A DNA stretch of 36,041 nt from Deltaproteobacteria bacterium (GTDB lineage Bacteria > Desulfobacterota > Dissulfuribacteria > Dissulfuribacterales > QOAL01). Below are positions 1,893-29,350 of the stretch, in pieces. Position 1 is the first letter of the stretch, and every line of letters begins with the position of its first letter. Below the pieces are notes generated by a model. It had not been told where the DNA came from. It worked only from the letters and a program-made list of their open reading frames with translations, and did no database searches. The position numbers and the translations under genes are program-made. The DNA lies in assembly GCA_024275145.1 (NCBI GenBank), contig JAJRZR010000108.1, positions 1-36,041 of the forward strand, read 5' to 3'.

Positions 1893-1953
1893 GCCCGGAC
1901 CATGTCTTCATGTCCGGATGTGACGCAAGATTGCGGGCCGCACGAGGGCTTAT

Positions 1954-4052: not shown

Positions 4053-5513
4053 TCAATACGGCGTCATAGGGCACGTGCCGTTATCTTCAAGGATTGGGCA
4101 TCGCCTTTCCCAGACTTTTTCGGGCACGGGGATGGTCTCCCTGGCCATTTTTAGAACCCGGTCTGCAATGTCCCTGGACAGTCCCGTATGTATGCCGGGA
4201 TTTAGCGCCATCTCCAGTGTGTCCTTTGCAAAGAGCCTTGACATATCTTTCTTTTCCAGCAATATGTCGATAGGTCTTTTGCCATGGGCCCTGGCAGACA
4301 TGGATGCCTCGTAGACCAGCCTATGGGCCCTGGAAAGGCCGATCTTTTCCGCGAGCAGGAACATCAAGGCCTCTGAGGATATGAAGGACGCCGCTTCGGC
4401 TAGGTTCGCCTCTATCCTTTTTTTGTGGATTACAATTCCCTGGAGTATCCTTTTCATGAGAGAGAGCATCCCCGAGAAGAAAAGACATGTGTCTGTAACG
4501 CTGACCCACTCCAGGCGAACTGCCCTGTAATCACGCTCGTGTTCATTGATCAGCCCCTCAAGGCCCAGCCCGGCGTTGGCCTTTATGAGCCTTGAGAGTA
4601 CCACCACCTGTTCGCACATCTCAGGATTTACCTTGTGGGGCATGGTGCTGCTTCCAACCTTGCCCATATGGAAGGGCTCTTCCATTTCTCCCACCTCGCT
4701 CCTGGATAGCGTCCTGATCTCATTGGCTATGCGGCCAAGCCCCCCTGCAACGATTCCCATCGTGCACAGGAGATCGGCTATTCGGTCCCTGGCTGCATGC
4801 CAGGAGCAAAGCGGTGGTTTCAGCCCCAGGTGATTGGAGAATACCTCAAGCAACCTCAAGGCCTTTTTACCCAGGGCGTCCATGGTTCCAACTCCACCGA
4901 ACAACTGGCTTACGAGCACCCTGTCCCGGCAGGCAAGGAGCCTTTCGTGGCCCCTTGACAATTCATCCAGCCAACCAGCGATCTTGAGGCCCAGGGTCAT
5001 CGGCAAGGCCTGCTGACAGTGGGTCCTTCCGGTTATGGGGAGTCCCTTGTATCTTTCGGTAAGGTCTATGAGGTTGTGCGCGATCAGTTCGATATCGCGA
5101 AGGGCGATTTCAAGGTAGTCCTTGAGTTCAAGGACAAGGCCGGTGTCCTGTATATCCTGGGTGGTGGCGCCATGATGCACGTAATTTCCCATGTCTTCAT
5201 CCAGGATTTCCCGCAGGGCATCAAGAAGTGGTACTAGGGAGTGGCCGGTATAGTTGATTCCTCTTTTTACCCTGGAAAGGTCTATCGACCTTATGTCGGC
5301 CTTCTCACTAATGGCCCTTGCGGCCTCGTTGGGGATGATACCGAGTTCTGCCTGGGATTTGGCAAGCACTGCCTCTACGCGGAGCCATCTCTGGAACCTG
5401 TAAAGGTGGCAGAATACCATCCTGGCCTCGCTAGTGGTATAGCTTGCCCCGTAAAAAGGCGAATCAACTATGTGACAGATGGGTTGGCAGCGCATTTTGC
5501 CATGAAAATACAT
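4053..5513 (-). CDS. Fumarase/adenylosuccinate lyase superfamily lyase (PcaB/PurB-like), copy 2
   Basis: Members of this superfamily eliminate or cyclise across a C-N or C-C bond to release a fumarate-like product. Visible signatures are the flexible active-site loop GSSTMPHKVNPEMCE, the helix motif HHGATTQDIQDTG and the acid/base region TGRTHCQQALPMTLG. The segment FGGVGTMDALGKK and the WHAARDRIAD block are closer to 3-carboxymuconate cycloisomerase (PcaB) than to classical PurB. The open frame extends further upstream, but the ATG at 5513 has GGGGCAGG just before it and gives about 486 residues, matching the paralogue immediately upstream (gap of 84 bases to the chosen start). Last gene of the minus-strand series. 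Substrate unknown; an aromatic muconate pathway is unlikely in this context. Confidence 0.75.
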   Translation of the reverse strand: MYFHGKMRCQPICHIVDSPFYGASYTTSEARMVFCHLYRFQRWLRVEAVLAKSQAELGIIPNEAARAISEKADIRSIDLSRVKRGINYTGHSLVPLLDALREILDEDMGNYVHHGATTQDIQDTGLVLELKDYLEIALRDIELIAHNLIDLTERYKGLPITGRTHCQQALPMTLGLKIAGWLDELSRGHERLLACRDRVLVSQLFGGVGTMDALGKKALRLLEVFSNHLGLKPPLCSWHAARDRIADLLCTMGIVAGGLGRIANEIRTLSRSEVGEMEEPFHMGKVGSSTMPHKVNPEMCEQVVVLSRLIKANAGLGLEGLINEHERDYRAVRLEWVSVTDTCLFFSGMLSLMKRILQGIVIHKKRIEANLAEAASFISSEALMFLLAEKIGLSRAHRLVYEASMSARAHGKRPIDILLEKKDMSRLFAKDTLEMALNPGIHTGLSRDIADRVLKMARETIPVPEKVWERRCPILEDNGTCPMTPY

Positions 5514-5597
5514 CCTGCCCCTGGGCCATGTCGTGCCATGCCCTGAGGGTGTGGTCCCGGCCATACTGGCCACGTGAAAGTCTGGGGCCGGCAGTGG

Positions 5598-6986
5598 CTA
5601 GGGTTTCCAAAGGGGTTCAGGGTCCTTGGCCCTTAGGGACTGGATCTCATTGAGGCAGTCTTCGACCATGTCTATAGCGCAGCCCGTATATAATTCCGGG
5701 TGATCAAGGAAGGACAAGTCCTTCCCGGACACGAGAGGCCCGATCTCCGGATCGGTCAGTATCATGTGCTTGAGGCTGGCGCCTGTATCCTGTGCCGCCC
5801 TAACAATGGTCCGCACCTTTGCCATGGCGTCCATCCTTCCCATTGTGTCGGCAAGGGCCATGACCAGTGCCTCGGATACCGCTAGGTCACCTTGAAGGCC
5901 AAGGTTTTTCAGCATCCTTTCCTCCTTGATCCTAAGACCTGAAAGGACAGTGATCATGTAGTGGGATACGGCCCCTGTATATATGCAGACTTGCGGCATG
6001 GCAAGCCATTCAGACCACAGTTTTCTGGGATCCCTTTCATGTTCATGCACCATTGCCTCCATGACCACCTGTGAAAGGTGCCTGATATGCCCTGCAATGG
6101 CCTGGACCCGTTGGCACAGGACCGGGTTGGATTTGTGGGGCATGGCGCTACTTGCAGGGGCATGCCCAGGAGGAGTGGGTTCTTCAAGCTCTCCGATCTC
6201 AGTCTTTTGCAGTTGATAGATCTCGTTTGCGATCTTTTCGAGGGTACTGCAATATATGGCGCACAGATTGGCTGCTTCGGCTATCCTGTCCCTGGAATTG
6301 TGCCACGGGATATGGGAAAGGGCAAGGCCCAGGCGCTTCAATGTCGCCTCTGCCACCGGTCTGGCCATATCCCCTAGGGATGCAAGGGTGCCGGCTGCGC
6401 CGCCAAACTGGCCCACGTTCAGGCGACTGGCTATCTCCTTTAGCCTTTCGATATGTCTCCTTGTTTCCATTGCCCATACAGCAACCTTCATGCCAAAGGT
6501 TGAGGGCAGGGCCTGTTGGCCGTGGGTTCTGGCCATGATAGGTGTATCTATCTTCTTACGGGCCAGGTCAATACATATGGTTTCGATACCTCTCATATCC
6601 CTGTATATCAACGAGAGACACTCACGCAGTTCCAGGACCTGGCAGGTATCTATGACATCCTGGGTGGTAGCCCCGAAATGAACATATTGGCCGGCCATTT
6701 GGCTACAGGTGTCTTTCAGGGCATTTATAAGCGGTATCAATGAGTTGCGGCTCTTTTTGTATCCTTCTTTTAGGGCATTGATGTCCAGCTGATCGATCCT
6801 TGCCTTCCTATTGATTTCCCTTGCAGCATCGGTAGGGATCACCCCCAACTCGGCCTGGGCCGCGGCAAGCGCCGCCTCGAAATCAAGCCAGCGTTGAAGG
6901 CGTTTTTCTTCGTCGAATATACGAGTAAACTCCCTGGTACTGAATACCAACGGGTTGATTTCGTAGTCAAAGGGATGACAGGGCAT
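5598..6986 (-). CDS. Fumarase/adenylosuccinate lyase superfamily lyase (PcaB/PurB-like), copy 1
   Basis: This 462-residue protein is full length for the superfamily. It carries HFGATTQDVIDTC, ARTHGQQALPSTFG, FGGAAGTLASLGD, WHNSRDRIAE and the catalytic-loop signature ASSAMPHKSNPVLC, plus the late HEHERDPRKLWSEWLAMP motif typical of PcaB-like members. The catalytic Ser and His positions are intact. It is a clear paralogue of the next gene downstream, so two diverged active lyases are encoded in tandem, possibly forming hetero-oligomers because active sites in this family are built from three chains. Its start overlaps the end of the JAMM gene by 20 bases, which argues for translational coupling and a shared pathway. 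A housekeeping PurB role is less likely given the neighbours. Confidence 0.8.
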   Translation of the reverse strand: MPCHPFDYEINPLVFSTREFTRIFDEEKRLQRWLDFEAALAAAQAELGVIPTDAAREINRKARIDQLDINALKEGYKKSRNSLIPLINALKDTCSQMAGQYVHFGATTQDVIDTCQVLELRECLSLIYRDMRGIETICIDLARKKIDTPIMARTHGQQALPSTFGMKVAVWAMETRRHIERLKEIASRLNVGQFGGAAGTLASLGDMARPVAEATLKRLGLALSHIPWHNSRDRIAEAANLCAIYCSTLEKIANEIYQLQKTEIGELEEPTPPGHAPASSAMPHKSNPVLCQRVQAIAGHIRHLSQVVMEAMVHEHERDPRKLWSEWLAMPQVCIYTGAVSHYMITVLSGLRIKEERMLKNLGLQGDLAVSEALVMALADTMGRMDAMAKVRTIVRAAQDTGASLKHMILTDPEIGPLVSGKDLSFLDHPELYTGCAIDMVEDCLNEIQSLRAKDPEPLWKP

Positions 6987-7563
6987 AACAAGGCCTTCTA
7001 GGATTACGTTCGATCGTTATTGGGACTTCCCTGTCCTTTATTCCTTCATGGAATGCCCTTATGACAGGATGTTTCATGTCTACCATGGACACGATAAATG
7101 TGAATAGGCCGCTGTTACGTGCCAGGACCGCATCGAGTTTCGTGGGTGTGTCCCGTTGGGGATCATGGCTCCATGCCACTGCATGTACGTGATATGATCC
7201 GGCAATTGTGAATCCTCGGGCATCACATATCGCGTAGCACTCCCTCAGTTCTTCCGGGTCTGTGATCCATCCCCTTTTGGATAGGGGCGTTTTCGATGGA
7301 ATGGCGCTTCGTTCCATGATACGGTCCATGTAGCTCTTGTACGGCTCCACGGCCCTGAGATTTCTCTTCAAGGGAAGGATCAGCTCTACCAGAAAGTCCG
7401 GCCCGTTCAACGCCCCGGCCACGAGACCGTAGGCCCTTTTCGTATGATCCTCTCCGGGCAGAAACCTGCCGGTGAGCTTTCTGCTGCAATGGTGGATGAT
7501 CTCCTCCCATTTTGAACAGGGCAAGTGAAATCTCCTTATCTCATGTATCCTTGTTTTTCCCAT
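6967..7563 (-). CDS. JAMM/MPN+ zinc metalloprotease-like protein
   Basis: The 198-residue protein matches the JAMM (JAB1/MPN/Mov34) layout: an early strand ending in Glu60 (DFLVELILPL), the DPEEL helix at 102-106, then GSYHVHAV with His125 and His127, and PTKLD with Asp144, followed by the core strand FIVSMVD. This reproduces the Glu, H-x-H and [S/T]-x-x-D zinc ligands and catalytic acid. Bacterial members trim or deconjugate ubiquitin-like sulfur carriers, or cleave small peptide conjugates. The spacing between HVH and the Asp is longer than usual, with a second SHDPQRD stretch between them. It sits 9 bases after the YjeF-C-like gene and overlaps the first lyase. A MoaD/ThiS and ThiF pair lies 16 kb away. 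Substrate not known. Confidence 0.72.
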   Translation of the reverse strand: MGKTRIHEIRRFHLPCSKWEEIIHHCSRKLTGRFLPGEDHTKRAYGLVAGALNGPDFLVELILPLKRNLRAVEPYKSYMDRIMERSAIPSKTPLSKRGWITDPEELRECYAICDARGFTIAGSYHVHAVAWSHDPQRDTPTKLDAVLARNSGLFTFIVSMVDMKHPVIRAFHEGIKDREVPITIERNPRRPCYALSSL

Positions 7564-7572
7564 TGGTCCTGC

Positions 7573-8436
7573 CTATAAACGGCCATTTAGAACCTTCTCC
7601 AGGGCCGCTGGTATGTGCCCGATTATCTCGCTCACCTGGGTGGCTGGGGTGGGATTGGCAAGCTCACCTGCTACGCGATTTACCCTGCCTGCGATTCCGC
7701 AGGCATCCACATGATCCCTGCCGGCCTGGACCATCGCACTTATTGTGCCTGTTACCATGTCCCCGGTGCCACCAACAGGTTCCAGTGTCTCGATATTCGG
7801 GCTGTCAATACGTTCTATTATATCGCCATCCCGGCATACATAGTCCGTTTTACCCTTTATGAACATGGTGGTTGCGGCATTTTTGAATCGGTATGCCTTC
7901 TTGACCAGCTCCGGTACGTCTTCCTCCATGTGGAATATGAAGCCCCTGGTATAGGTAGGATGTGCAGCCTTTTCATCCGCCAGAAACGCTGCCTCTCCCA
8001 GATCAGGTGTAAAAAGCTGATACCTGTGGGCATCTCCTCCGGCCTTGGCCACATACATGCCCCCTGCATCGGCCAGGAGTACAGGAGGATGTTCCATGGA
8101 ATCAATGGAGGCGAGTACCTTCTTGTTCCATGCTATATCAGGCATTATATAGTGAATAGTAACGGCGTCCGGCCCAAGATCTGGCAGATTCTTGGCCAGA
8201 AATTCGTAGATTTTTACGCTACCTTCCCTTGATCCTATATCCCCGGCCACCACTGCATAGGGTGCTTCCAGCCCCATGGCCAGGGTGATATGGCATACAA
8301 CCGAGATCATTGCCGCTGTTCCGCGGTCTATGTCCACAGATCTTCCGTCGATCGTTATTCCACGCTCTGTCAGCTGTGCCTTGCCTGCAAGTAGCGGTAG
8401 ATCCCTGTCAGGAATCGTGCCTGCCAGAAGAAGCAT
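7573..8436 (-). CDS. YjeF C-terminal / ribokinase-fold protein (NAD(P)H-hydrate dehydratase-like)
   Basis: The protein has about 287 residues from the ATG at 8436, which is preceded by a GGGG run; an upstream in-frame start would add 19 residues lying inside the DUF3343 gene. Hallmarks are TPDLGEAAFL (the TPHPGE-like block), the strand MFIKGKTDYVCRDGD and VGGTGDMVTGTISAMV, where GTGD holds the catalytic Asp and anion hole of the ADP/ATP-dependent dehydratase or kinase fold. The genuine family repairs hydrated NADH, usually joined to an epimerase domain that is absent here. In this operon, coupled by overlap to a Se/S-carrier-like gene, it may have been recruited as a kinase or dehydratase for another small molecule. 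Confidence 0.65.
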   Translation of the reverse strand: MLLLAGTIPDRDLPLLAGKAQLTERGITIDGRSVDIDRGTAAMISVVCHITLAMGLEAPYAVVAGDIGSREGSVKIYEFLAKNLPDLGPDAVTIHYIMPDIAWNKKVLASIDSMEHPPVLLADAGGMYVAKAGGDAHRYQLFTPDLGEAAFLADEKAAHPTYTRGFIFHMEEDVPELVKKAYRFKNAATTMFIKGKTDYVCRDGDIIERIDSPNIETLEPVGGTGDMVTGTISAMVQAGRDHVDACGIAGRVNRVAGELANPTPATQVSEIIGHIPAALEKVLNGRL

Positions 8437-8983
8437 TTTTTTCCCCCATGATTCTAAGTAATTCTTCCCGTGCCGTGCCAAGTGAATAGGCACAAAGGGA
8501 AAAGCCTATCTTTATAGGATCAGGTGCCTGCCCTATGGGTTTCCCCACCATCTCACGGGCCAGATAGGGCACATCCGGACAACCTCCACCGGAGATATTT
8601 ACTATGACGAGGCTCTCCTTATCTACCGTGATTTTCATATTGGCAGCCCGTACCATGAGATAACGACCAAAATCCTTCACCCGAACGAGCTTTAATGGTT
8701 CCAGGTTATCGGAGGATATGCGTATTACCTCGAGCGGCGAAAGTCCTATGGTGTCGAGCAGCCTTCTGATTCCCAATTCCTCTACCAGAGGATATTCTAC
8801 CGACAGATCGCAGCCGGTCCGGTATTTCGGCGGGGGGCTTACAACCTTTATATCGTATCCCTCTTCCTTCAGGATCTGCTCGACCTGCATCACAGAGCCT
8901 GTATCAGGATAGATAAGAAGCCCCCTGGTTGCCGGTTTCCCATTGCCAGGCGTCTTTTTTTTGTTCTTTTTGAACCACTTCAT
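8408..8983 (-). CDS. DUF3343 (Se/S carrier-like) protein with a second conserved domain
   Basis: The 191-residue protein has a Lys-rich start. Residues about 20-66 then match the DUF3343 pattern: GLLIYPDTGSVMQVEQILKE followed by PPKYRTGCDLSVEY with a conserved Cys58. DUF3343 proteins are described as putative selenium/sulfur carriers related to the DsrE/TusA world. Residues about 95-180 form a second compact part with Cys135 in ISGGGCPDVPY and Cys164 in IGFSLCAYSLG, which I do not recognise. Three well-placed Cys residues are consistent with persulfide or perselenide handling. The gene overlaps the next one by 29 bases. A YedE-type permease in the same gene series supports a Se/S role; the biochemical activity is inference. 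Confidence 0.65.
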   Translation of the reverse strand: MKWFKKNKKKTPGNGKPATRGLLIYPDTGSVMQVEQILKEEGYDIKVVSPPPKYRTGCDLSVEYPLVEELGIRRLLDTIGLSPLEVIRISSDNLEPLKLVRVKDFGRYLMVRAANMKITVDKESLVIVNISGGGCPDVPYLAREMVGKPIGQAPDPIKIGFSLCAYSLGTAREELLRIMGEKNASSGRHDS

Positions 8984-9032
8984 AGATTACCTACCATGCC
9001 TTTTCCAATCCGGGGATATAGTGGCCATGGTC

Positions 9033-10649
9033 CTAGATGCCGCTTAAGAAGAAGCTCCACCTTTCTTCAAGGTCCCTTCCTGGACCTATGCCCACAGGGC
9101 CAGTATATACGGGATCTGAGGGCGGAGGAATAGAAAGATCCATTTCTAGCACAAAGGCCCTCAGGAGTTTCCTGGTGCCATCGCCATACGGCTGTAGCAA
9201 CCTGGCATCCGTTACCCCACGAGGCCTCTTCGCAAGGATTACGAAGATACCCACCTGCGGCTGCCTGTTGTGTTCCCTGTACCAGTTCGGGCCAGGCCTT
9301 GGAAAGGCGACGGCCACCACGTCACCACCTGCCCCATACATGCGCAAGGCCCCAAGAAAGGTCCTTGAACCGGCAAGCCTGCCTACTATCTCCCTTGTAA
9401 AGGCCTCGTCGATCCTCGTCTTTACCAGGGGTGCCTTTACAAAGATGAGTTCAACCGGTCCCTTACCGGCTGCGCCTCTAACGGCAGGAAACCTCTCCAT
9501 TACACGTGAGAGCATGTTCTGAAACCGGTGTATCAGCATCCTATGGAAACATTTCTCATAATTGCCTATCGGGTCATGACCCTGGAGATCAAGATCAAGG
9601 ATACAGGTGAAGCCTGTGACCACACGGCGTTTCTGTGGGTCGCCAAGGAATTCCTCTGGTGACAATCCAGGAGCCTGGGGATGTATACGGGCCACCAGCA
9701 GTTTAAGTCTTCTGGCATTGGCATGTGGCCTGCCTGTCCAGCCTCCCGGAAGCCCTACCAATATGGCCGCTTTGTCATATCCCGTGATTCCAAGTCTTGA
9801 GATCTGATCAGGCAGACTAGTTGAGGAAACCACTGCCCTTTTTATCTTGTTCATCACGCCGTGCTGGCTGATTCCCCCATAGGGACCCTTGAGTAATATG
9901 ATCCTTCCGTTGTTCAGGGTGATGAACGGACTTGCCTCCGCCGGCATCCTCACCGGCAGGTTCGTAAGTTCCAGGCTTACGAAAGGCACCTTCATGGTCC
10001 TTGTCTTTATGTATTGTATGCCATGCCCTGCAAGAATGGCCAATCCTGTCACTGCGATAACCTGAAGAGGGATGAGTATCCAACCAGGTAGATTCATGCT
10101 GGGTGTCATTGAGATGATTCGGGCGATTTTTTCATCTCCCGGGACGATGAAGCTGGTTTTTTCCCTATAGCTTTCGTATGCCTCTCCAAATAATTTTTCG
10201 CATCTTTTTTCCTCGGAAAGCGCCAGGCGGTAATAGAGATACAGCATGAGGAAGAAGGCTATGAAGGTGATGAATCGGCCCCAGGTGATTATTATACCCA
10301 TGCCGAACAAGGCCAGGGCTATGTACTGTGGATGGCGGACCCTGCTGTAGAGGCCGGTGGTTACGAGTCCGCTATGCCTGATCTTTGCCGTGTATATCTG
10401 GGCTGCGCCTGTGAAAAAGATAGCTAGTCCAGCCACCATCATGACAGGGCCCAGGGGAAACAAGGTCAGGACAGGAAATACGAAGTGGGTGAGCCATGCA
10501 GTATGGGGGTTCTGGTTCAGGTAATGGATATGCAGGATAGAGCCGTAGAGAAACCCTGCAAAGGGAAGGAGCATCCAGATTACCTCTATGAGGATCAGGA
10601 ATACCCATAGATTGAGCAGTAGTTTTAGTAGGCGTTTCAGTGCGTGCAT
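9033..10649 (-). CDS. Integral membrane ICMT/PEMT-like methyltransferase with unknown soluble C-terminus
   Basis: This is a 538-residue protein. The N-terminal 200 residues hold about five transmembrane helices and the isoprenylcysteine carboxyl methyltransferase-type motif GLVTTGLYSRVRHPQYIA, followed by ALSEEKRCEKLFGEAYESYR; these are the SAM-binding and membrane-embedded catalytic landmarks of this family. One more helix lies near residue 190-215. The remaining about 320 residues are soluble and probably extracytoplasmic; I see no known domain in them. They include GGISQHGVMNKIKRAVVSS and a Pro-rich tail. The fusion of a small-molecule or lipid methyltransferase-like membrane domain to a large unknown domain is unusual. 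Gap to the 958-residue beta-helix gene upstream is 18 bases. Confidence 0.65.
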   Translation of the reverse strand: MHALKRLLKLLLNLWVFLILIEVIWMLLPFAGFLYGSILHIHYLNQNPHTAWLTHFVFPVLTLFPLGPVMMVAGLAIFFTGAAQIYTAKIRHSGLVTTGLYSRVRHPQYIALALFGMGIIITWGRFITFIAFFLMLYLYYRLALSEEKRCEKLFGEAYESYREKTSFIVPGDEKIARIISMTPSMNLPGWILIPLQVIAVTGLAILAGHGIQYIKTRTMKVPFVSLELTNLPVRMPAEASPFITLNNGRIILLKGPYGGISQHGVMNKIKRAVVSSTSLPDQISRLGITGYDKAAILVGLPGGWTGRPHANARRLKLLVARIHPQAPGLSPEEFLGDPQKRRVVTGFTCILDLDLQGHDPIGNYEKCFHRMLIHRFQNMLSRVMERFPAVRGAAGKGPVELIFVKAPLVKTRIDEAFTREIVGRLAGSRTFLGALRMYGAGGDVVAVAFPRPGPNWYREHNRQPQVGIFVILAKRPRGVTDARLLQPYGDGTRKLLRAFVLEMDLSIPPPSDPVYTGPVGIGPGRDLEERWSFFLSGI

Positions 10650-10667
10650 GTGTGCATATCGAATGCC

Positions 10668-13544: not shown

Positions 13545-13552
13545 AAGTTTCT

Positions 13553-14605: not shown

Positions 14606-15777
14606 CTTCTGCCTCTGTTTTTGCCCCATCCGGCAAAGTGGATGCCCGCTGTCACGTTTTGGTATATACGGTTTTTCCTTACCTTGACATCCGTGGCATC
14701 GACCAATCTCAGGCCTGCGTCGAGATTTCTGTATATCTCGTTTGATTCTACAAGCACCCTGTTCGGTTCGAACAGCGCCAGTCCAGAGGCCATGTTATCA
14801 TAGACCTTGTTTGAGATCAGTTCCATTACGTGTATATTGATGGCCATTATCCCGGCATCCAGATTTCCATATATGGTATTGCCCTGGATTATCGCATCGA
14901 GCCTGCCCTTTCTGTCCGGCAACGCCTTGAGGCGGATACCTGCACGCCTGTTTTCGAAAAGTCTGTTGTTTCGTATGACCAGAGGGTTCTCGTTTACGTC
15001 GAGATTGATCCCCCCTATTCCTGAACCATTACGGTAACAGGTGTTTTCCTCGATTACAGGCCTGGCGTATTCCCTTATGCCGATTCCAGGGGGAACCTTG
15101 CCCCTGTTCGTCCTGCTGGTGAAATGGTTGTCGAATATCTCGTTTCCCCGTATTATTCCCTCGGAGTTTGGTCCGTTTGATATGCCCGGCCCCAGGTTGT
15201 CGAATATGACGTTGTCCTTGATCAGGGGTCTGGCCGTAGTTTCAAGGGGAGGCCCCATGCCCCTGCCAAGGCCTGTAGAGAGTATTCCTCCCCAAGATCG
15301 GTTGCCATGGATGATATTGTTGACAAAGACCGGTGAACAACCCCTTATCTCTACCATGAACATCTTGGTCCCTGTATGGTAACGGGGCAGGTTTCTTAGT
15401 GTAAAGCCATCCACCTTCATAGGGGCAGTGGTATCCTTGGGAAAGCTCAGCAGATAGCCTGGTTCCTTGAGCCCGGTGCCATCGATTATGGTATCGAGCG
15501 ACCTTCGAAGCACCCTCTTTCTACCCGGCCCTCTTATTCGTTCATTTCCCTTCCTCCCGGCGAAACTTACAAGGCATATCCCCTTTTTCATCTTTATGCG
15601 TTCGTGATATACACCGGGCTTGACTACCACCGTATCCCCATTTTTTGCAGCAGTAATGGCCTGGCCAATGCTCTTGAAGTCATCGGGTACGGTGATCGTC
15701 CTGGATAAGGCTGCAGAGGCTATGCCCAGCAGAATGATAAGGGCCATTGCCACGGATCTGACGGTAGGACGCATCAT
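14602..15777 (-). CDS. Exported right-handed beta-helix protein (NosD-like)
   Basis: This is a 391-residue protein with a signal peptide (VAMALIILLGIASAALS) followed directly by a NosD-type entry strand TITVPDDFKSIGQAITAAKN and GDTVVVKPGVYHERI, the usual start of NosD/pectate-lyase-like helices. PbH1 coils then continue to the C-terminus with the pattern NxIYxNLDAGI. It lacks the anchor-Q-like end seen in its neighbours. The start ATG lies one base after the MFS gene stop with GGAGG in the end of that gene, and its own stop overlaps the next beta-helix gene. This packing indicates co-translation with both sides. Confidence 0.75.
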   Translation of the reverse strand: MMRPTVRSVAMALIILLGIASAALSRTITVPDDFKSIGQAITAAKNGDTVVVKPGVYHERIKMKKGICLVSFAGRKGNERIRGPGRKRVLRRSLDTIIDGTGLKEPGYLLSFPKDTTAPMKVDGFTLRNLPRYHTGTKMFMVEIRGCSPVFVNNIIHGNRSWGGILSTGLGRGMGPPLETTARPLIKDNVIFDNLGPGISNGPNSEGIIRGNEIFDNHFTSRTNRGKVPPGIGIREYARPVIEENTCYRNGSGIGGINLDVNENPLVIRNNRLFENRRAGIRLKALPDRKGRLDAIIQGNTIYGNLDAGIMAINIHVMELISNKVYDNMASGLALFEPNRVLVESNEIYRNLDAGLRLVDATDVKVRKNRIYQNVTAGIHFAGWGKNRGRR

Positions 15778-15778
15778 T

Positions 15779-16966
15779 TCAGGCCTCCTGTTTGCGGATG
15801 TACCAAAGCATATAGATTACCACCAGCAGGGATACGGTCGATATCGTACCAAGGACCGCAAACACGCCGGCTACCCCTATAAGATCGGTCACATAGCCGC
15901 CTACGGATGCGGCTATTGCCCCCACTCCCATTATGAGCAGGAAGTTTATGCCAAAGCTGAGCCCGTGGGCGGATCGGGCCGCATACTTGGCGATCAGGGT
16001 ATTTTGCACTGGTTGCCAGGCAAAGAAAAACATGGCAAACGCAAGGCTTGCGGCAAAGAGCAGCCAATTCTTCAGGAGCCAGATGGAGAAAAACAGGGGG
16101 GTAGAGGCCAAGAATACCAAGAGGTAGGCGTGCTCAGGCCTCTTGAGTTTGTCACACAGGATACCGCCCAGCAGTTGGCCAACGGTGCCTGCCAAGGTAA
16201 CGAAAGCCACCAGGGTACCTGCCCTTGCCACGTTATCCAGGGCAAAGTGGATATTTTGTACAAAGTGTTTGGGAAAGAACATCATGGAGCCACGGTAGCA
16301 GAGGCCATATAGCATGGAGTTGAAATAGATGAGAAGCAGCACGAACGGCATGCCGAAAAGTCCCTTTCCCCTTGCCGGTGTCTTGGTTTTCGAAGCCTTG
16401 GGGACATGACGTTCGATGCGCGTCCAGACGATGAGCAGGAACAGGACGAAACCAAGCACGGCAAATACGATGAATGCCCCTCTCCATCCCCACCTGGCTG
16501 CAGCTGCCCCGGAAAGCACGGGTCCAAGGGCAAGACCTACGTTACCGCCGACCCCATGTATCCCCATGGCTCGTCCCCTGACCCTTACGTTCCTCGAGAT
16601 GAAGGAAAGGCCTGATGGATGATAGATAGATGCGGCCAGGCCGAGAAGTGCCATGGAAGCAACGAAGGGCAGCAGGGAAGGGGACAGACCGGCTGCCAGG
16701 CTGGCAAGGGCCATGAAAAAGGCACACACTGCAAGCATACGCTGGGAGCCCAGCCTGTCTGCCAGCATTCCGGCAGGTATGGCCCCTGCACCAAACAGGC
16801 CGTAGCACAGGGTTCCTACCAGCCCCAGCCTGAAATAGCTGTTGGTGCTTAGGCCAGGATCCCTTGCCAAGAGGACCAGCACTGTGGGAAAGATCATCAT
16901 GTAGGCATGGGTGAGCATATGTGTGGCAGTGGCTATGAATACTACTCTGTTTTCCCGTCTGTCCAT
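15779..16966 (-). CDS. Major facilitator superfamily transporter, 12 TM
   Basis: The 395-residue inner-membrane protein has twelve predicted helices and the MFS loop motif between TM2 and TM3 (GMLADRLGSQRML). TM4-5 carries YHPSGLSFISRNVRVRGRAMG and GVGGNVGLALGP, a pattern shared with fosmidomycin-resistance-type and related exporters. A Lys/Thr-rich cytoplasmic loop separates the two six-helix halves. The gene begins 10 bases after the YedE stop and ends one base before a beta-helix start. Direction and substrate cannot be told from sequence; position beside YedE and exported proteins suggests traffic of the same compound or a product. Confidence 0.75.
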   Translation of the reverse strand: MDRRENRVVFIATATHMLTHAYMMIFPTVLVLLARDPGLSTNSYFRLGLVGTLCYGLFGAGAIPAGMLADRLGSQRMLAVCAFFMALASLAAGLSPSLLPFVASMALLGLAASIYHPSGLSFISRNVRVRGRAMGIHGVGGNVGLALGPVLSGAAAARWGWRGAFIVFAVLGFVLFLLIVWTRIERHVPKASKTKTPARGKGLFGMPFVLLLIYFNSMLYGLCYRGSMMFFPKHFVQNIHFALDNVARAGTLVAFVTLAGTVGQLLGGILCDKLKRPEHAYLLVFLASTPLFFSIWLLKNWLLFAASLAFAMFFFAWQPVQNTLIAKYAARSAHGLSFGINFLLIMGVGAIAASVGGYVTDLIGVAGVFAVLGTISTVSLLVVIYMLWYIRKQEA

Positions 16967-16976
16967 GATGGATTCC

Positions 16977-18035
16977 CTATGTCCTCCTGGTCTTTTGTCT
17001 TAAAAGATATGCAACACCAATGCTGAAGATCAACCCTGTTATGACTGCGATCTTACCGCCGAAGGCAGGGCCTGCCGAGGTGCTTCTGATGGACCAACCG
17101 AATACCAGAGCCCCTCCAACCAGCATCCCCATAGTGGTAATGGCGGCATCTACGTCCCCTGTACCTGCCTTAATCAGTTGTCTGAATGGACAGCCATCTA
17201 TCAATACGGATGACAATCCTACCAACAGCATGGCCAGGAAGGTCCAGCCGTGTGCCTGGTGTGAAGACGGCTGTGCATGGAGACCCAGATGGAACGAACC
17301 AAGCAGCAGGTTCAGGCCTGTGGCGGCAACAAGGGCCATGGCAATGCCATTGAACAACGTAAGGTCCCTGGCCAGGAACAGGTTCCTGATGCCGCCTGTT
17401 ATGCAAAGGCCTGAACGCTGTGCCAATGCACCGATACCCAGCCCAATACCCAGGGCAATCAGGATCGGGGCATGGTCAGCCGCCGGCCCTCTCTGCCCTA
17501 TGGCCAGGAACGCCGGGCGGAGCCACAGGAAAAGGAGCAGCAACAGCGCGAAGGCGGGCAGGAACAGCCCGTTTATCCCCGGCATTTCCCTTGGGATGTC
17601 CGGTCTGAATCCTCCCTTAAGGTATCTGACACCTATGTAAACCCCTGAGGCAAGGCCAATGGCTGCAGGAATGGCGGTGAGGTCTCCTGCGCCCAGCCTC
17701 AGGATCATCTTTACGGGGCATCCAATAAAAACGGCACATCCTGCAATCATGAAGAAGCCCAGCAGGAACCGAACGGCCGGCGATGAGCCTCCCCTTACCC
17801 TGAATCTGCCGGTGGAGACGGCCATTACTAAGGATCCAAGGATGAAGCCGCTGATTTCCGGCCGTATATAACTCATGCGGATCTCGTGATGCAGGGTAAG
17901 TGCACCAGCGATATTTTCAAGGAAGCACGATATGCAGATCCCTGAATTGGCGGGATTTCCAAGGTAGGAAAGTATGACCCCGCCCAGGCCCAGGGCCAGG
18001 CCCGTTGCTACGCTCAAATCGAACAGCCTGCGCAT
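16977..18035 (-). CDS. yedE: YedE/YeeE-family permease, selenium-metabolism type
   Basis: The protein has about 352 residues and ten or so transmembrane helices. Landmarks are NSGICISCFLENIAGAL near the N-terminus, IRPEISGFILGS, GCAVFIGCPVKMILRLGAGD and later RSGLCITGGIRNLFLARD and DGCPFRQLIKAGTGD. The duplicated GCP-x-[KR] Cys motifs are those of the YeeE/YedE fold, which moves thiosulfate-like species with Cys relays. The first Cys pair and overall plan fit the subfamily named YedE/FdhT in selenium metabolism. I chose the ATG at 18035, ten bases after the upstream stop; a TTG at 18065 is possible. With a DUF3343 gene downstream it gives the region a sulfur/selenium flavour. Confidence 0.75.
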   Translation of the reverse strand: MRRLFDLSVATGLALGLGGVILSYLGNPANSGICISCFLENIAGALTLHHEIRMSYIRPEISGFILGSLVMAVSTGRFRVRGGSSPAVRFLLGFFMIAGCAVFIGCPVKMILRLGAGDLTAIPAAIGLASGVYIGVRYLKGGFRPDIPREMPGINGLFLPAFALLLLLFLWLRPAFLAIGQRGPAADHAPILIALGIGLGIGALAQRSGLCITGGIRNLFLARDLTLFNGIAMALVAATGLNLLLGSFHLGLHAQPSSHQAHGWTFLAMLLVGLSSVLIDGCPFRQLIKAGTGDVDAAITTMGMLVGGALVFGWSIRSTSAGPAFGGKIAVITGLIFSIGVAYLLRQKTRRT

Positions 18036-18045
18036 CTTCAAGGTA

Positions 18046-18576
18046 CTACTCGCAGCCCCCTGCAAGCCTGCTCTGCAGGTAGTAGATGTCCCTCAGGGCC
18101 TGTCTTACTACGGGATCATCAGGCTTTAGCGCCTTTTCCCTGGAGAGTTTCTCCCTGCCCTCGCTCACCAGTGTCTTTAGACCGCTTCCAATGTAGAGAG
18201 GGGTTTTTTTGTCTACATAATCGGGATTTTTCTCCACTGCCATGCGGAAATAATGGATGCTTTTCGAGAGATCGCCGGTCTTTAGGTAGAGATCCGCCAG
18301 ATATTTGTAGCCGGATGCCCTGTCCGGATGGGCCTTTATTATCCTTTTAAATAATGCTACCGCCCTGGTATATTGCCCTTTCTTTTCCAGTGAAAGGGGT
18401 TTTTTGAAAATATTTTCATCCAGCTGGCGCTGGCGTTCATAGAAGGCCTCAAGCTTCTGCGAGGGATCAGTGGCTGGCACCAATGAGGCGTATATATGGT
18501 GACGCACCAGCATACCCGCCAGGATCACGGTAAGTATCCCTATCGCCGCAAGGCTTGTCCTGTCAATCCAATCCAT
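18046..18576 (-). CDS. Membrane-anchored TPR protein
   Basis: The 176-residue protein has one N-terminal transmembrane helix (about residues 8-25, LAAIGILTVILAGMLV) and a periplasmic remainder with TPR repeats between about 60 and 125 (YTRAVALFKRIIKAHPDRAS, then YLADLYLKTGDLSKSIHYFR). TPR domains of this kind scaffold protein complexes. It overlaps the upstream beta-helix gene by 14 bases and precedes yedE by 10, so it is probably an assembly partner of one of these. No enzymatic feature seen. Confidence 0.68.
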   Translation of the reverse strand: MDWIDRTSLAAIGILTVILAGMLVRHHIYASLVPATDPSQKLEAFYERQRQLDENIFKKPLSLEKKGQYTRAVALFKRIIKAHPDRASGYKYLADLYLKTGDLSKSIHYFRMAVEKNPDYVDKKTPLYIGSGLKTLVSEGREKLSREKALKPDDPVVRQALRDIYYLQSRLAGGCE

Positions 18577-19561
18577 TGGCCCTAAATGGAATTCCTGCCC
18601 CCTTTACCGGGGATCTGGCATAGGGATGGAACAGAAGCCTGCCCAAATCCTTTTCTTCATCCCTGTCCCAGGCCAGCTTCTTTATGCGTTTTTCGTCCGT
18701 GGTACCCCACCAATTGCGGGGTGCGTATACGTCATAACCCTGTCCTTCGAATAGTGAAACGTTGTAATCCAGGCTCCCATCAACATTGTTGTAGCTGAAA
18801 ATGACCATGGGCGTGGCATAAAGGGCAAGTCCTTTGCCGTTCTTTACAATATTATTATACCTGATCAGGGCAGGGCCTGCCTTTTTGGCAAATATGGCAA
18901 AGATCTTGTTGCCCTCCAGCAGGTTGTTTACGATGGTTGGGCTGGCACCGTTTCCAAAGAGTATCCCACCGCCATTATCCACGATGCGGTTATAAAGGAT
19001 GGAAGCCACGCACTTGGTATTATATTTTTTGACATTTTTCATCCCTATGGCCACGCCGTTGTTATGGAAATAGGACGAGGCCACCAGCACCTGGGCCCCG
19101 TGGCAGTGGACAGCAGTGTGGGCAAAGCTGAATTCACAGAATTCTATGATGTTGCCGGTGCTATCGAGCATATTTACAGCACCCCAGTCGGCCGGGCCAG
19201 GGACGTTGTCGGCAGAGGTGAACCTTATCGTGTGATCCCTGGTGCCCTGGGCTATTATCCTTCCCTTGACAATGAGTTCTGCCCTGGGAAAGTGCTCGCT
19301 ATGGTCTTCATAGAGCTTTCCAGTGCCCCACTGGTCGATCTTCACAAACCTGATCACTGTGCCGGGCATTATCGTAAGCACTGTTCCCTTTGTTACCTCT
19401 ACGTCACCTTTTATGAGGATCTCGCCCTGCCAGACGGTATCCCGCTTGATCAAGACCCGCTCATATACCTTGGGGCCTGCCTGGCATGTGGAGGGGGGCG
19501 TTCCCAACAGGAATAGGGCAGCGGAAACCATTATAGGGTATAGGAATCGGTTGTGATGCAT
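18563..19561 (-). CDS. Exported beta-helix protein, smaller divergent member
   Basis: This is a 332-residue protein. The signal peptide (YPIMVSAALFLLGTPPSTCQA) contains a Cys but no perfect lipobox. The start ATG at 19561 has GGGAGG ten bases upstream. The first 100 residues show the entry strands IKGDVEVTKGTVLTIMPGTVIRF and AELIVKGRIIAQGT, typical of parallel beta-helix proteins with a low-temperature, pectate-lyase-like start, then PbH1 coils (NNLLEGNKIFAIFAKK). The C-terminal NWWGTTDEKRIKKLAWD block is common to this subgroup. It differs from the four larger helices in lacking the NDIGAFGGP end. Encoded between a PhnD-like lipoprotein and a TPR protein. Confidence 0.7.
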   Translation of the reverse strand: MHHNRFLYPIMVSAALFLLGTPPSTCQAGPKVYERVLIKRDTVWQGEILIKGDVEVTKGTVLTIMPGTVIRFVKIDQWGTGKLYEDHSEHFPRAELIVKGRIIAQGTRDHTIRFTSADNVPGPADWGAVNMLDSTGNIIEFCEFSFAHTAVHCHGAQVLVASSYFHNNGVAIGMKNVKKYNTKCVASILYNRIVDNGGGILFGNGASPTIVNNLLEGNKIFAIFAKKAGPALIRYNNIVKNGKGLALYATPMVIFSYNNVDGSLDYNVSLFEGQGYDVYAPRNWWGTTDEKRIKKLAWDRDEEKDLGRLLFHPYARSPVKGAGIPFRANGLD

Positions 19562-19586
19562 ATCTTTTCTACCTCCCGCTGGGGCC

Positions 19587-20516
19587 CTATTCGTATCTCT
19601 TGTAGGGTGGCATGTTACAGCGTTTCAGGCGTTTTCTTATGGGATCGTAGTCCTTGTCGTCGGCCTTGACATATCCGTCTATCCAGGCCCTTTTCAAGAC
19701 CTTTAATACCTCTCCGTCTACAAGGACCGTCTCGTCCTTCTTGAGATCCAGGAGTATCTTCTGTACCTGGTCTACCAGCTTCGGGTCCACCCCGGGCATG
19801 GCCCCTATGGTGCAGTAAGGCATGGGCCTGCTTTCTGCTATGATGGTAAAATCATCGGGGTTGATCTTTCCCTCTCTGGCCATCTTGTCAAAGTCGATCC
19901 GTGGAGCAGCCCCCACATCGTAGCGCCCGAACATGACCCCATATATCACCTTTTCGTGTTTATAGGCACCCCAGGGGATGGCATAGTAGGCAAGGTCTTC
20001 TTCAGGGTTGAAATTATGGGTGAGCATGAGGTAATACTGAGCCATATATCCGAAGGGGGCGAGGGCAGGGCCGAAGACCATGGTCTTGCCCTTCATATCC
20101 TTGAAGGTCTTTATGCCGCTTTCCTTCCTGGCAATGATGAGGCCTGTCTCCTTGTAGCCATAACGACCGCGTTTTTCCACGGCAATGGGTTTTACCCCGT
20201 AGTTCTTCTCGAAGATCACCGCCAGGATGGAGTTGGAATGGGTGAAATCCACCTTTTTTGTCCTTACGAGGTCTTCAAAGTCAAAGGTGTTGACGTAGAT
20301 AGGGATGAATTTCCTGCCGGTTTTTTCAGAAAGATAGGCGGTCAGTGGGTCGAACCTGGCCTTGGATTCGGCAAGGCTGTTACAGATCATATAGCCTATC
20401 CTTACAGGTTTTCCTTTACTTGAAATTCCTTCTGGTCCTTTGTTGCACGAAGACAGGAGGCCCACCAGTATGGAGCACATGGATATGGCGAGTATGATCC
20501 TTAGGGTTGCCCTCAT
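19587..20516 (-). CDS. PhnD-like periplasmic substrate-binding lipoprotein
   Basis: The 309-residue protein has a signal with lipobox GLLSSC, so it is a lipoprotein. The body matches the phosphate/phosphite/phosphonate binding-protein family (PhnD type): VRIGYMICNSLAESKARFDPL, LTAYLSEKTGRKFIPIYV, VDFTHSNSILAVIF, GLIIARKESGIKTFKDMKGK and RPMPYCTIGAMPGVDPKLVD. No ABC permease or ATPase lies in this window, so it is an orphan binding protein. PhnD-fold proteins without transporters can act as periplasmic sensors (AioX for arsenite is one example). It overlaps the upstream TPR gene by 4 bases. Ligand unknown; phosphonate should not be assumed. Confidence 0.75.
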   Translation of the reverse strand: MRATLRIILAISMCSILVGLLSSCNKGPEGISSKGKPVRIGYMICNSLAESKARFDPLTAYLSEKTGRKFIPIYVNTFDFEDLVRTKKVDFTHSNSILAVIFEKNYGVKPIAVEKRGRYGYKETGLIIARKESGIKTFKDMKGKTMVFGPALAPFGYMAQYYLMLTHNFNPEEDLAYYAIPWGAYKHEKVIYGVMFGRYDVGAAPRIDFDKMAREGKINPDDFTIIAESRPMPYCTIGAMPGVDPKLVDQVQKILLDLKKDETVLVDGEVLKVLKRAWIDGYVKADDKDYDPIRKRLKRCNMPPYKRYE

Positions 20517-21055
20517 AGCTTGGCCCCCGGTAGCTTGCCCTTGCCCTCAACGAATTTCAGCTCCGCCTCTATCCTTGCAGCCGCCTTCTGATCCTTGCAT
20601 AGCCCCCTTGCCCTTTCCATTTCCGCCCCTGCCAGTGTATTTTGGCCAAGCTCCTTGTAGAGCACGTAGAGATGGAGATGGACCATTGGGTCATAAGGTC
20701 TGAGCCTTTCTGCCTGAAGCAGCTTGGTCTTTGCCTCATCCATATGTCCCTGCTTCATAAGTAGGATTCCAAGTCCGTCCAGGGCATCGAAGTTTTTACT
20801 GTCCTTTTGCAGTATGTAGTCCAGTTGTGCCCGGGCTTCCTCTAGCTTGTTTGTACGCAGCAGGACCATTGCCATCTTGTTTCTGGATACAAGGTCATCA
20901 GGATTCATATAAATAAGAAGTCGATACTGCATAATCTGAACAGGGGCTGGAAGATTGGATATGTTGCCGTGTGCCAATGCATCTCCTGGAATGGCGGAGG
21001 TGGTAAAAAGGCAGAGGATGAACAGATTGGCAGATAATCGGAACGAGCACTTCAT
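20513..21055 (-). CDS. Periplasmic TPR protein
   Basis: The 180-residue protein has a Sec signal (residues 1-28, LFILCLFTTSAIPGDALA) and three to four TPR units between about 45 and 150 (NKMAMVLLRTNKLEEARAQL, ALDGLGILLMKQGHMDEAKT, LHLYVLYKELGQNTLAGAEM). The ATG is preceded by AAGGA at good spacing. It ends inside the start of the PhnD-like lipoprotein gene, so the pair is translationally coupled and the proteins probably work together. Scaffold role inferred; no catalytic motif seen. Confidence 0.7.
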   Translation of the reverse strand: MKCSFRLSANLFILCLFTTSAIPGDALAHGNISNLPAPVQIMQYRLLIYMNPDDLVSRNKMAMVLLRTNKLEEARAQLDYILQKDSKNFDALDGLGILLMKQGHMDEAKTKLLQAERLRPYDPMVHLHLYVLYKELGQNTLAGAEMERARGLCKDQKAAARIEAELKFVEGKGKLPGAKL

Positions 21056-21086
21056 GAGATTTTTCCTTACAATTGTGGTCGTTGGC

Positions 21087-21953
21087 CTACAGGATGTGGC
21101 CCAGTGAGCCGTAAAGGGTAACTATCCCAATTATCACAATGAGAGCGGCACTTGCAACGGAGATCTTCTGTGCTAAGCGCCTTGAATCAAGGAATCTGCC
21201 TGCAATGCGGCCTGCGCTTACCACAAAGAGTCCTATAGAAATCAATACGATGGCAAGTCCCAGACTGAAAAGGAGTATGTATGTCAGTCCCTCGCCTATC
21301 TTTCCCGCACCAATGGCGGCTATGAGTATGGCTATCGCCGCCGGGCAGGGGACTACTCCACCGGATAGACCGAGCAGAAAGAGTTGCCAGGCACCTGATT
21401 TCCCGGCAGGCGCATGGTGATGGCTGTGATGTGTGTGGTGTCCAGCCAGGTGTTCATGGCTATGTTCATGGTGACCATGCTCATGCCCATGGGGGTGAAT
21501 ATGTCCTTCCCCATCTTTATGGCTATGAGAATGGTGATGTCCGTGTGGATGGAGGTGGAAATGAAATGGATCCCTTCCCTTGAGCCTTTGTATTAGCATC
21601 CAGGTGCCCACGAACAAGATAATCAGCCCGCCTATTATGCCCATGTATCCATGCAAGGCCTCTTCGGTGAGATTGATCCTGGTGGATACATACTTTGCTG
21701 CGATGGCCATAAGGATGACCGTGAAGGTATGTGTGAAGGTTACCACCAGCCCCAAAAAGACCGCATCCGTCTTCGTGCCCTTGGATCCCACCAGGTAGGC
21801 AGCCACCACTGTCTTGCCATGACCGGGTTCAAAGGCGTGCATACCACCTAGGAGCATGGCCGTAAGGTAATAGATTAGTTTCAGTGTCACGGCTCCTTTT
21901 ATTCTTGATATCGAGTGATTCCAAGTTCGCCTGGTCGCAAGGCTTAAAGGCAT
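21087..21953 (-). CDS. NicO/RcnA-type nickel-cobalt permease with a His-rich loop
   Basis: The membrane protein has about 288 residues. HAFEPGHGKTVVAAYLVGSK early on and VTFTHTFTVILMA are the two signature helices of the NicO family, and SGGVVPCPAAIAILIAAI begins the second half. A cytoplasmic or periplasmic loop at about residues 130-185 has roughly thirty His residues in short H-x-H and HGHHH runs, a typical metal buffer of RcnA-like nickel/cobalt exporters. ATG at 21953 was chosen; a GTG at 21890 preceded closely by AAGGAG is an alternative that removes 21 residues. The fold is shared with DsbD/CcdA-like and TauE-like proteins, so export of Ni/Co is probable but not certain. Confidence 0.7.
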   Translation of the reverse strand: MPLSLATRRTWNHSISRIKGAVTLKLIYYLTAMLLGGMHAFEPGHGKTVVAAYLVGSKGTKTDAVFLGLVVTFTHTFTVILMAIAAKYVSTRINLTEEALHGYMGIIGGLIILFVGTWMLIQRLKGRDPFHFHLHPHGHHHSHSHKDGEGHIHPHGHEHGHHEHSHEHLAGHHTHHSHHHAPAGKSGAWQLFLLGLSGGVVPCPAAIAILIAAIGAGKIGEGLTYILLFSLGLAIVLISIGLFVVSAGRIAGRFLDSRRLAQKISVASAALIVIIGIVTLYGSLGHIL

Positions 21954-21976
21954 CAACGCCTGCTTCTAACTGCCAC

Positions 21977-21998
21977 CCAATGCATGGCAACACATTGG
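21977..21998 (-). other. Intercistronic hairpin before the NicO gene
   Basis: A perfect six-base inverted repeat, CCAATG at 21977-21982 and CATTGG at 21993-21998, has a ten-base loop in the short gap between the OpuAC-fold gene and the NicO gene. No T-run follows it on the minus strand, so it is not a classical terminator. It might stabilise or process the transcript, or mark an operator for the downstream genes. No match to NikR or RcnR sites was seen. Confidence 0.3.
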
Positions 21999-22025
21999 CT
22001 GCGATGCCATCAGGAGGGTTTGTCG

Positions 22026-22634
22026 TTATATTAATCGAAGGGCCTTGAGGAAATCCCTTGCTGTCTTCTCGGGCTCCTGTCCCCCACTCTTGCTTCCGAG
22101 TCTTTCGAGGGTGTTGTTGTCAATCTTTCCGCCAAGCTTATTTATCAGCCTGTCAAGGACAGGAAACTTTCTAAGGGTTTCCACCGATACGACTGGAGCG
22201 GCCAGTGAAGCATCCTTGCCTGGAACGAGGTTGCCGTTCAGTGGCCCCTTGTATCCAAGCGGCCTGAGCCATACCAGTTTAAATCGGTCCAAAAAGCCCT
22301 GACTGACCAGTATGTATAGCTTTTGGGGATTGTCTTCACGGTCTCTTCTAAGATCCAGGATCTTCCCGGCCGGTTCGAGGTAATTTATATACAGATTGGC
22401 CTTGCCGGAAAGAACAGCCTGGTGGCAGGCCTGGATGTCCCCTGGATGTATCAGCTTTACCGTAGTACCTGTTCTTTCATTTATATATATAGATAATATC
22501 GCCCCCATGACCTGCTGATCAGGGGAGTTGGAGACTGCCAAGGTCAATATCCTGCCTACACAACCGCTTGCATTGGGTGCCAGGATGCCGAGGAATAAGA
22601 ACAAAATAAAAAGGCCCTGGATTATTCTCTTCAC
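22026..22634 (-). CDS. OpuAC/OsmF-fold periplasmic solute-binding protein, short
   Basis: The protein has about 202 residues from a GTG at 22634, which has GAGGA nine bases upstream and immediately opens a signal peptide (IIQGLFILFLFLGILAPNAS); a TTG at 22664 would add a polar extension and is less likely. The core LAVSNSPDQQVMGAILSIYI, GTTVKLIHPGD and SGKANLYINYLEPAG resembles the glycine-betaine/choline binding family, where the equivalent motif reads as a Tyr-containing EYTGT-like block. It is about 80-100 residues shorter than usual members and has no cognate ABC genes nearby. First gene of the long minus-strand series. Ligand not predictable. Confidence 0.55.
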   Translation of the reverse strand: MKRIIQGLFILFLFLGILAPNASGCVGRILTLAVSNSPDQQVMGAILSIYINERTGTTVKLIHPGDIQACHQAVLSGKANLYINYLEPAGKILDLRRDREDNPQKLYILVSQGFLDRFKLVWLRPLGYKGPLNGNLVPGKDASLAAPVVSVETLRKFPVLDRLINKLGGKIDNNTLERLGSKSGGQEPEKTARDFLKALRLI

Positions 22635-22707
22635 TTCAGGATGTCCTCGACCGGTTGATTTCAAAACGTTGGAATTTGCTATCTGCCTGAATGATCATTC
22701 ATTAAGG

Positions 22708-23440: not shown

Positions 23441-23454
23441 GACAGAGGCTGAGG

Positions 23455-27300: not shown

Positions 27301-27314
27301 TGCTCTCCTTCTCT

Positions 27315-28940: not shown

Positions 28941-28953
28941 AGCTTCCTCCTTC

Positions 28954-29349: not shown

Positions 29350-29350
29350 A

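Follow-up and report, generated by a model that had tools for sequence, protein, structure and literature searches.

Gene organization of the cassette

A tightly packed gene cassette is found in a 36,041-base window, which is one contig (JAJRZR010000108.1, assembly GCA_024275145.1) of the 2.65-Mb genome of a deltaproteobacterium assigned to Dissulfuribacterales in the phylum Desulfobacterota. Its main part is a minus-strand series of 17 open reading frames (ORFs), which encode two lyases, a JAMM-fold metalloprotein, sulfur- or selenium-related proteins, a nickel/cobalt exporter of the RcnA type and many exported proteins (Table 1). The cassette recurs, with its gene order kept, in 16 named Desulfobacterota contigs, and this conservation puts the unit far beyond chance. 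The RcnA-type exporter is the strongest clue to function, because within Desulfobulbales strong matches to it occur only in cassette-bearing genomes, even where the two are unlinked.

A preliminary description had proposed that the 17 genes form a single functional unit that combines small-molecule enzymes with exported proteins, and the conserved order supports this proposal. All 17 ORFs were found (4053-22664). Their packing is as tight as was claimed: the largest gap between longest ORFs is 69 bases, and several neighbouring pairs overlap. The family assignments were confirmed with Pfam and NCBIfam and, for the JAMM fold, with AlphaFold2 and Foldseek. Some longest-ORF starts lie too far upstream; likelier starts are near 5495 for lyase A, near 8436 for the kinase-fold gene (from the starts of homologues) and near 21890 for the RcnA-type (NicO) gene, whose longest ORF spans 21087-21956. 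The series was said to end at 22634, but the unit extends further, with divergent genes for a ThiS-like carrier, a glutamate dehydrogenase (GDH)-like enzyme and an E1 enzyme at 23177-25469 on the plus strand. The earlier reading overlooked these three genes and gave the RcnA-type exporter no weight. The divergent intergenic region has no Rfam match, either to nickel riboswitches or to others.

Conservation of the neighbourhood

An alignment of the JAMM protein, searched against 84,980 species genomes, returned the 16 named loci, all of which are labelled Desulfobacterota. In close relatives (L019-L023), the gene order is OpuAC, PhnD/TPR, beta-helix m, TPR l, YedE, DUF3343, kinase-fold, ThiS, JAMM, (dehydrogenase), lyase B, lyase A and E1. 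The ThiS, dehydrogenase and E1 genes of these relatives lie inside one collinear run with homologues of the minus-strand genes. Lyase B, DUF3343 and the kinase-fold gene are each present in 15 of the 16 loci; YedE, TPR l, beta-helix m and ThiS in 14; lyase A, PhnD and TPR o in 13; the dehydrogenase in 12; and E1 in 11. Several of these missing genes reflect contig ends.

Adjacency by mere chance of the blocks at 4-9 kb and 15.8-22.6 kb is contradicted by their occurrence side by side, minus the MFS gene, in 14 of the 16 loci. An integral role of the middle block, as had been assumed, is not supported. The region at 9.0-17.0 kb sits between YedE and DUF3343 and is an insertion found only in this genus. 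Its ICMT/PEMT-like gene occurs elsewhere only in a sister genome (locus L017/L037), homologues of beta-helix proteins g, h and i are encoded downstream of E1 in L046 (h and i also in L047), and relatives of the MFS gene adjoin a YedE-beta-helix pair in L093 and L094, two loci of the second JAMM clade described below.

Distribution and association with a nickel exporter

Of the 258 Desulfobulbales genomes covered by a profile search, 51 encode the JAMM protein; in broader samples of the phylum, few genomes do. The JAMM tree has two clades, and the window's protein belongs to clade 1. DUF3343 is present in all 23 Desulfobulbales genomes of clade 1 and in none of clade 2. Clade 2 keeps JAMM, the dehydrogenase, both lyases, beta-helix m (11 of 13 loci), the binding proteins and often RcnA.

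Within the 258 genomes, JAMM and the cassette-type PhnD protein occur together in 48, one without the other in 3 and 4, and neither in 203 (Fisher p = 1e-43). An alignment search gave strong RcnA matches in 34 genomes, 33 of which also have JAMM; the remaining one (G607) instead has a cassette-type PhnD gene beside RcnA (Fisher p = 2e-28 for RcnA and the cassette). Seven more genomes contain weaker NicO matches (E 1e-24 to 1e-38), apparently of other NicO subfamilies. With these seven included, JAMM and RcnA are found together in 33 genomes, JAMM alone in 18, RcnA alone in 8 and neither in 199. Within the window's own family, RcnA is present in four of seven cassette genomes and in none of the cassette-negative members examined. 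Because RcnA is often far from the cassette in the genome, the association is not mere linkage.

Cassette proteins and related pathways

The JAMM protein has no match in Pfam. Its AlphaFold2 model (predicted local distance difference test, pLDDT, 90.6) matches JAMM metalloproteases in Foldseek, the best including 2kks, the bacterial Ubl-deubiquitinase complex 8tyx and BRCC36. The protein keeps H125-x-H127 and T141-x2-D144, and His125, His127 and Asp144 do not vary among 17 sequences. By our reading of the motif alignment, an invariant Arg43 stands where other JAMM proteins have Glu, with longer spacing. The ThiS-like carrier scores 37.5 bits against a Pfam cut-off of 22.5, and its IPIAGG end is invariant in 15 sequences; the E1 protein scores 230.8 bits on the ThiF model. 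The joint presence in one cassette of a GG-ending ThiS/MoaD-like carrier, a ThiF/MoeB-like E1 and a JAMM-fold protein recalls protein-thiocarboxylate pathways (CysO-Mec+-CysM, HcyS-HcyD-HcyF and MoaD-MoeB). However, the cassette contains lyases and an ELFV dehydrogenase in place of a pyridoxal-phosphate sulfhydrylase or MoaE partner, its JAMM protein has the usual Glu replaced, and the carrier and E1 are missing from the cassettes of clade 2 and of the cable-type genomes introduced below.

The closest solved relatives of lyase A are fumarate lyase and CMLE. Both lyases were considered as housekeeping adenylosuccinate lyases, but they are closer to CMLE/fumarate lyases, and Electrothrix-type genomes contain a separate, 27%-identical homologue. 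The two lyases also score 437.7 and 420.6 bits on the XcbD model of coenzyme M synthesis (XcbB-E). A bacterial coenzyme M cluster was rejected, because these scores are below the XcbD cut-off of 600 and the window has no other Xcb gene.

The presence of a sulfur/selenium transporter and carrier, as had been claimed, is supported by YedE and DUF3343. Both families are published selenium candidates, along with YedF (PMC5322559), and both domains in the cassette are above curated cut-offs. In the cassette, however, DUF3343 is fused to an additional conserved C-terminal domain, and SelD, SelA, selenocysteine lyase and YedF are absent, with SelD encoded elsewhere in the genome. The DUF3343 protein has invariant Cys58, Cys135 and Cys164 in its alignment, and a fold search with the protein and its extra C-terminal domain found no significant structural relative. 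Separate YedE-DUF3343-kinase modules lacking the remaining cassette occur in five loci (L024, L025, L028, L030 and L031), with selD nearby in L024, and may be selenium modules.

The preliminary description had suggested uptake and processing of a sulfur or selenium compound as the main theme. In such a system, YedE would import the compound, DUF3343 and ThiS would carry it, and the lyases and JAMM protein would make a sulfur or selenium amino acid, comparable to CysO/Mec+ and HcyS/HcyD. The YedE score of 376.6 bits on the selenium-transporter model, the published selenium candidates, the trio near selD in L024 and SelD matches above cut-off in 15 of 17 cassette genomes agree with this idea. 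Yet SelD is a general selenocysteine gene, so that it is not specific evidence, DUF3343 is missing from clade 2, and neither the RcnA association nor the beta-helix, TPR and PhnD core is explained. Uptake and processing is not supported as the main theme, and we consider this explanation improbable.

A role in the energy metabolism of sulfur oxidation or disproportionation, common to Desulfobulbales and cable bacteria, seems much more remote. Carriers of the cassette do include Desulfocapsa and cable bacteria, the transporter is of the YedE type, and a multihaem cytochrome is encoded nearby. However, the enzymes are of biosynthetic types and the presence of the cassette is patchy (51 of 258 genomes). 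Also, the published YTD cluster (PMC13047784) has TusA and DsrE genes next to YedE; identity with that cluster was rejected, because the window series contains neither gene.

The PhnD-like protein still belongs to the same fold family as phosphite- and phosphonate-binding proteins, but the STS-type loop of PtxB is replaced by GPALAPFGYM. Residues invariant across both clades are Cys45, His93, Met158, His187, Cys235 and Met302, and we infer from this Cys/His/Met pattern that the site would suit a soft metal or a sulfur compound. The RcnA-type exporter scores 155 bits on the PRK10019 nickel/cobalt efflux model, below its cut-off of 195, and has a loop of 66 amino acids with 26 histidines.

Table 1. 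Genes of the cassette and of its accessory module in the window
Feature	Position	Strand	Basis
TPR and outer-membrane beta-barrel protein, accessory module	564..1892	+	Pfam TPR, Phenol_MetA_deg
Right-handed beta-helix lipoprotein-like protein, accessory module	1954..3135	+	Pfam Beta_helix/NosD
Multihaem cytochrome c, 10 CXXCH motifs, accessory module	3116..4018	+	Pfam Cytochrome_C7, motif count
Lyase A, fumarase/aspartase superfamily, CMLE-like, catalytic motifs intact	4053..5495	-	Pfam Lyase_1 1e-45; invariant residues
Lyase B, fumarase/aspartase superfamily, catalytic motifs intact	5598..6986	-	Pfam Lyase_1 2.5e-44
JAMM-fold metalloprotein	6967..7563	-	AlphaFold2 pLDDT 90.6; Foldseek; alignment
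Ribokinase/NAD(P)HX-dehydratase-fold enzyme, GTGD motif	7573..8436	-	Pfam Carb_kinase 4.5e-9; start from homologues
DUF3343 selenium/sulfur carrier domain and conserved C-terminal domain	8408..8983	-	Pfam Se_S_carrier 3.7e-14
ICMT/PEMT-like membrane methyltransferase, genus-only insertion	9033..10649	-	Pfam PEMT
Large exported beta-helix protein g	10668..13544	-	Pfam Beta_helix
Exported beta-helix protein h	13553..14629	-	Pfam Beta_helix
Exported beta-helix protein i	14602..15777	-	Pfam Beta_helix
MFS transporter	15779..16966	-	Pfam MFS_1
YedE-family putative selenium/sulfur transporter	16977..18065	-	NCBIfam TIGR04112 376.6 bits, cut-off 200
Membrane-anchored TPR protein (TPR l), conserved C-terminal Cys175	18046..18576	-	Pfam TPR
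Exported beta-helix protein m, core in both clades	18563..19561	-	Pfam Beta_helix/NosD
PhnD-like lipoprotein, phosphonate-site motif replaced	19587..20516	-	Pfam Phosphonate-bd; alignment
Exported TPR protein o	20513..21055	-	Pfam TPR
RcnA-type nickel/cobalt exporter	21087..21890	-	Pfam NicO; NCBIfam PRK10019
OpuAC-like exported binding protein, invariant CVGR motif (Cys35)	22026..22664	-	Pfam OpuAC
ThiS/MoaD-like carrier, 87 amino acids, C-terminal IPIAGG	23177..23440	+	Pfam ThiS 3.6e-9, above cut-off
Glu/Leu/Phe/Val dehydrogenase-like (GDH-like) enzyme, core in both clades	23455..24696	+	Pfam ELFV_dehydrog
ThiF/MoeB-like E1 adenylyltransferase, two CxxC pairs	24693..25469	+	Pfam ThiF 1.6e-68

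The cassette in cable-type genomes

Eleven genomes form one clade of the JAMM tree (support 100/99) and fall into a group of four with 2.1-2.8 Mb and a group of seven with 3.6-5.1 Mb. Their sizes, their RcnA proteins and the clade itself suggest that they are cable bacteria of the Electronema and Electrothrix types. One is a single contig of 5,089,909 bp and probably corresponds to the closed Candidatus (Ca.) Electrothrix scaldis genome, which has 5.09 Mbp (PMC10926707). The loop of its RcnA protein has about 136 amino acids and 56 histidines, and cable-type loops overall have 109-136 amino acids and 39-56 histidines, all counted with our wider boundaries. Published cable-bacterial loops have 100-123 amino acids and 33-53 histidines, and none was reported from the other Desulfobulbales in that study (PMC11247825). 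The window's loop falls short of that length, and its JAMM protein lies outside the cable clade.

JAMM, PhnD and DUF3343 are found in all 11 cable-type genomes (JAMM by construction, as the set is defined by the JAMM clade), and RcnA in 10. Two small genomes outside this set (G461 and G469) lack JAMM, and another candidate cable bacterium (G472) was dropped on the basis of the JAMM tree. In the small-genome type, most cassette genes are linked (L098, L099 and L146-L148). In contrast, Electrothrix-type genomes all keep the core but scatter it over distant loci. For example, G471 has a DASS-OpuAC-TPR-PhnD-beta-helix-TPR-YedE run at 4.665-4.672 Mb, kinase-DUF3343 at 4.598 Mb, JAMM-dehydrogenase-lyase B at 0.891-0.894 Mb, RcnA at 0.485 Mb and lyase A at 0.375 Mb. 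Because these genomes retain the whole core despite its dispersal, linkage alone cannot explain the association, and this retention argues for joint function.

In two small-genome loci (L147, 574-957; L148, 9121-9507), a diacylglycerol-kinase-like gene occupies the ThiS position; the L147 copy is assigned by a Pfam match, and the L148 copy by sequence similarity. In a Ca. E. scaldis-type genome (L136, 4473-10839), RcnA adjoins two nicotianamine-synthase homologues, an ABC ATPase and a TonB receptor. It is possible that this locus is a nickel metallophore operon in cable bacteria.

The cassette itself might make a nickel chelator, a metallophore-like aminopolycarboxylate without a redox role. 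The dehydrogenase and lyases would link amino acids with acids of the fumarate type, as in chelators of the ethylenediaminedisuccinate (EDDS) type, and the binding proteins would capture the nickel complex. Fumarase-superfamily lyases commonly form C-N bonds, cable RcnA adjoins the nicotianamine-synthase homologues, and the core common to both JAMM clades comprises, often along with RcnA, the dehydrogenase, two lyases, JAMM and binding proteins, but not ThiS or DUF3343. A chelator would thus also account for the RcnA link and the clade-2 core. However, the partner exports nickel rather than importing it, the cassette lacks an ABC permease or ATPase, and YedE, DUF3343 and ThiS point to sulfur. 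The beta-helix and TPR proteins are also left unexplained. We view a chelator as an unlikely, though credible, product.

Proposed function

The explanation that we prefer, at somewhat less than even chances, is that the cassette encodes the synthesis of an organic nickel ligand, probably rich in sulfur, and its placement in the cell envelope. By analogy with known pathways, the ThiS/MoaD-like carrier, MoeB-like E1, YedE, selenium/sulfur carrier, two lyases and dehydrogenase fit the synthesis of such a ligand. The dithiolene sulfurs of molybdopterin come from the thiocarboxylate of MoaD, which is activated by MoeB. In the cytoplasm, the dehydrogenase and both lyases would make a small polyfunctional acid, as the chemistry of their families suggests. 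In cassettes of the window type, YedE may import sulfur (or selenium), which DUF3343 and the E1-activated carrier would deliver as a protein thiocarboxylate, a type of donor predicted by homology. The JAMM protein would then free the product from the carrier. RcnA, judging from its homologues, would export nickel into the periplasm, and the PhnD-like lipoprotein and the OpuAC-like, TPR and beta-helix proteins might bind, assemble or scaffold the complex.

Cable bacteria conduct electricity by way of a sulfur-ligated nickel cofactor. This cofactor, which their fibres hold, resembles nickel bis(1,2-dithiolene) (NiBiD) (PMC8238962, PMC10959288). Cable-type genomes contain both the core genes and RcnA, and in cable bacteria this set would be a candidate source of the cofactor of the conductive fibres. 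In contrast to the cable machinery, the window's JAMM protein and short RcnA loop fall outside the cable type, and its organism is not known to have a nickel cofactor. A more specific proposal is that the cassette encodes both the synthesis and the assembly of a nickel-dithiolene-type conductor and is complete both in cable bacteria and in non-filamentous Desulfobacterota, including the window organism. We regard this proposal as doubtful, but if it is true, nickel-based conduction in the envelope would predate cable bacteria and extend beyond them, and the genes behind it would now be named.

Several observations weigh against a sulfur-rich nickel ligand. The cable strain YB6 (Ca. Electrothrix yaqonensis) has NiBiD without rcnA (PMC12093952), so RcnA is not essential for NiBiD, and RcnA is missing from 18 of the 51 JAMM-positive genomes. 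The Fisher tests are uncorrected for shared ancestry. Neither the cable-type nor the clade-2 genomes contain a ThiS of the cassette type, E1 was not found in their cassettes, and clade 2 also lacks DUF3343 and the kinase; the sulfur relay is therefore not universal. Also, many of the genomes with the cassette come from organisms other than cable bacteria, in which NiBiD is not known to occur.

The claim that the series has no known counterpart holds in the sense that searches of open-access PubMed Central turned up no description of the gene set, nor any mention of it in the cable-bacteria papers under the terms searched (preprints and subscription papers were outside this scope), but homologous cassettes do occur in other Desulfobacterota. 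The genes that make the cable-bacterial nickel cofactor are likewise not known from the papers covered here, where earlier searches listed nickel transporters and cytochromes. About 10 core genes are conserved in cable-type genomes, persist through dispersal and co-occur with a nickel exporter, and they are also found in non-cable relatives, so that the open question becomes a short gene list. The cassette is thus a testable candidate for building a nickel-containing part of the bacterial envelope, and should its product be something other than NiBiD, the genes would still mark out an undescribed envelope system with a link to nickel.

Neighbouring genes

A further plus-strand trio at 564-4018 encodes a TPR/beta-barrel protein, a beta-helix protein and a deca-haem cytochrome. 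This accessory module adjoins the cassette in 5 of the 16 named loci and in L100. Beside one clade-2 cassette lies an ORF for a 2,909-amino-acid multihaem cytochrome-like protein (L083, 798-9527).

On the opposite strand, a HEPN-like ORF (25351-25875) with a weak Pfam score, below the cut-off, overlaps the end of the E1 gene. An ORF at 34930-35874, whose start is probably near 35086, has no Pfam match and adjoins a phosphoglycerate-mutase-like gene. A scan of viral contigs based on NifD found no match. The nitrogenase cluster to which this gene belongs adjoins the cassette, with nifK, nifD, nifI2, nifI1 and nifH on the minus strand at 25921-30602, and a plus-strand gene for a GAF/sigma-54 activator (31163-32755) is located beside it.

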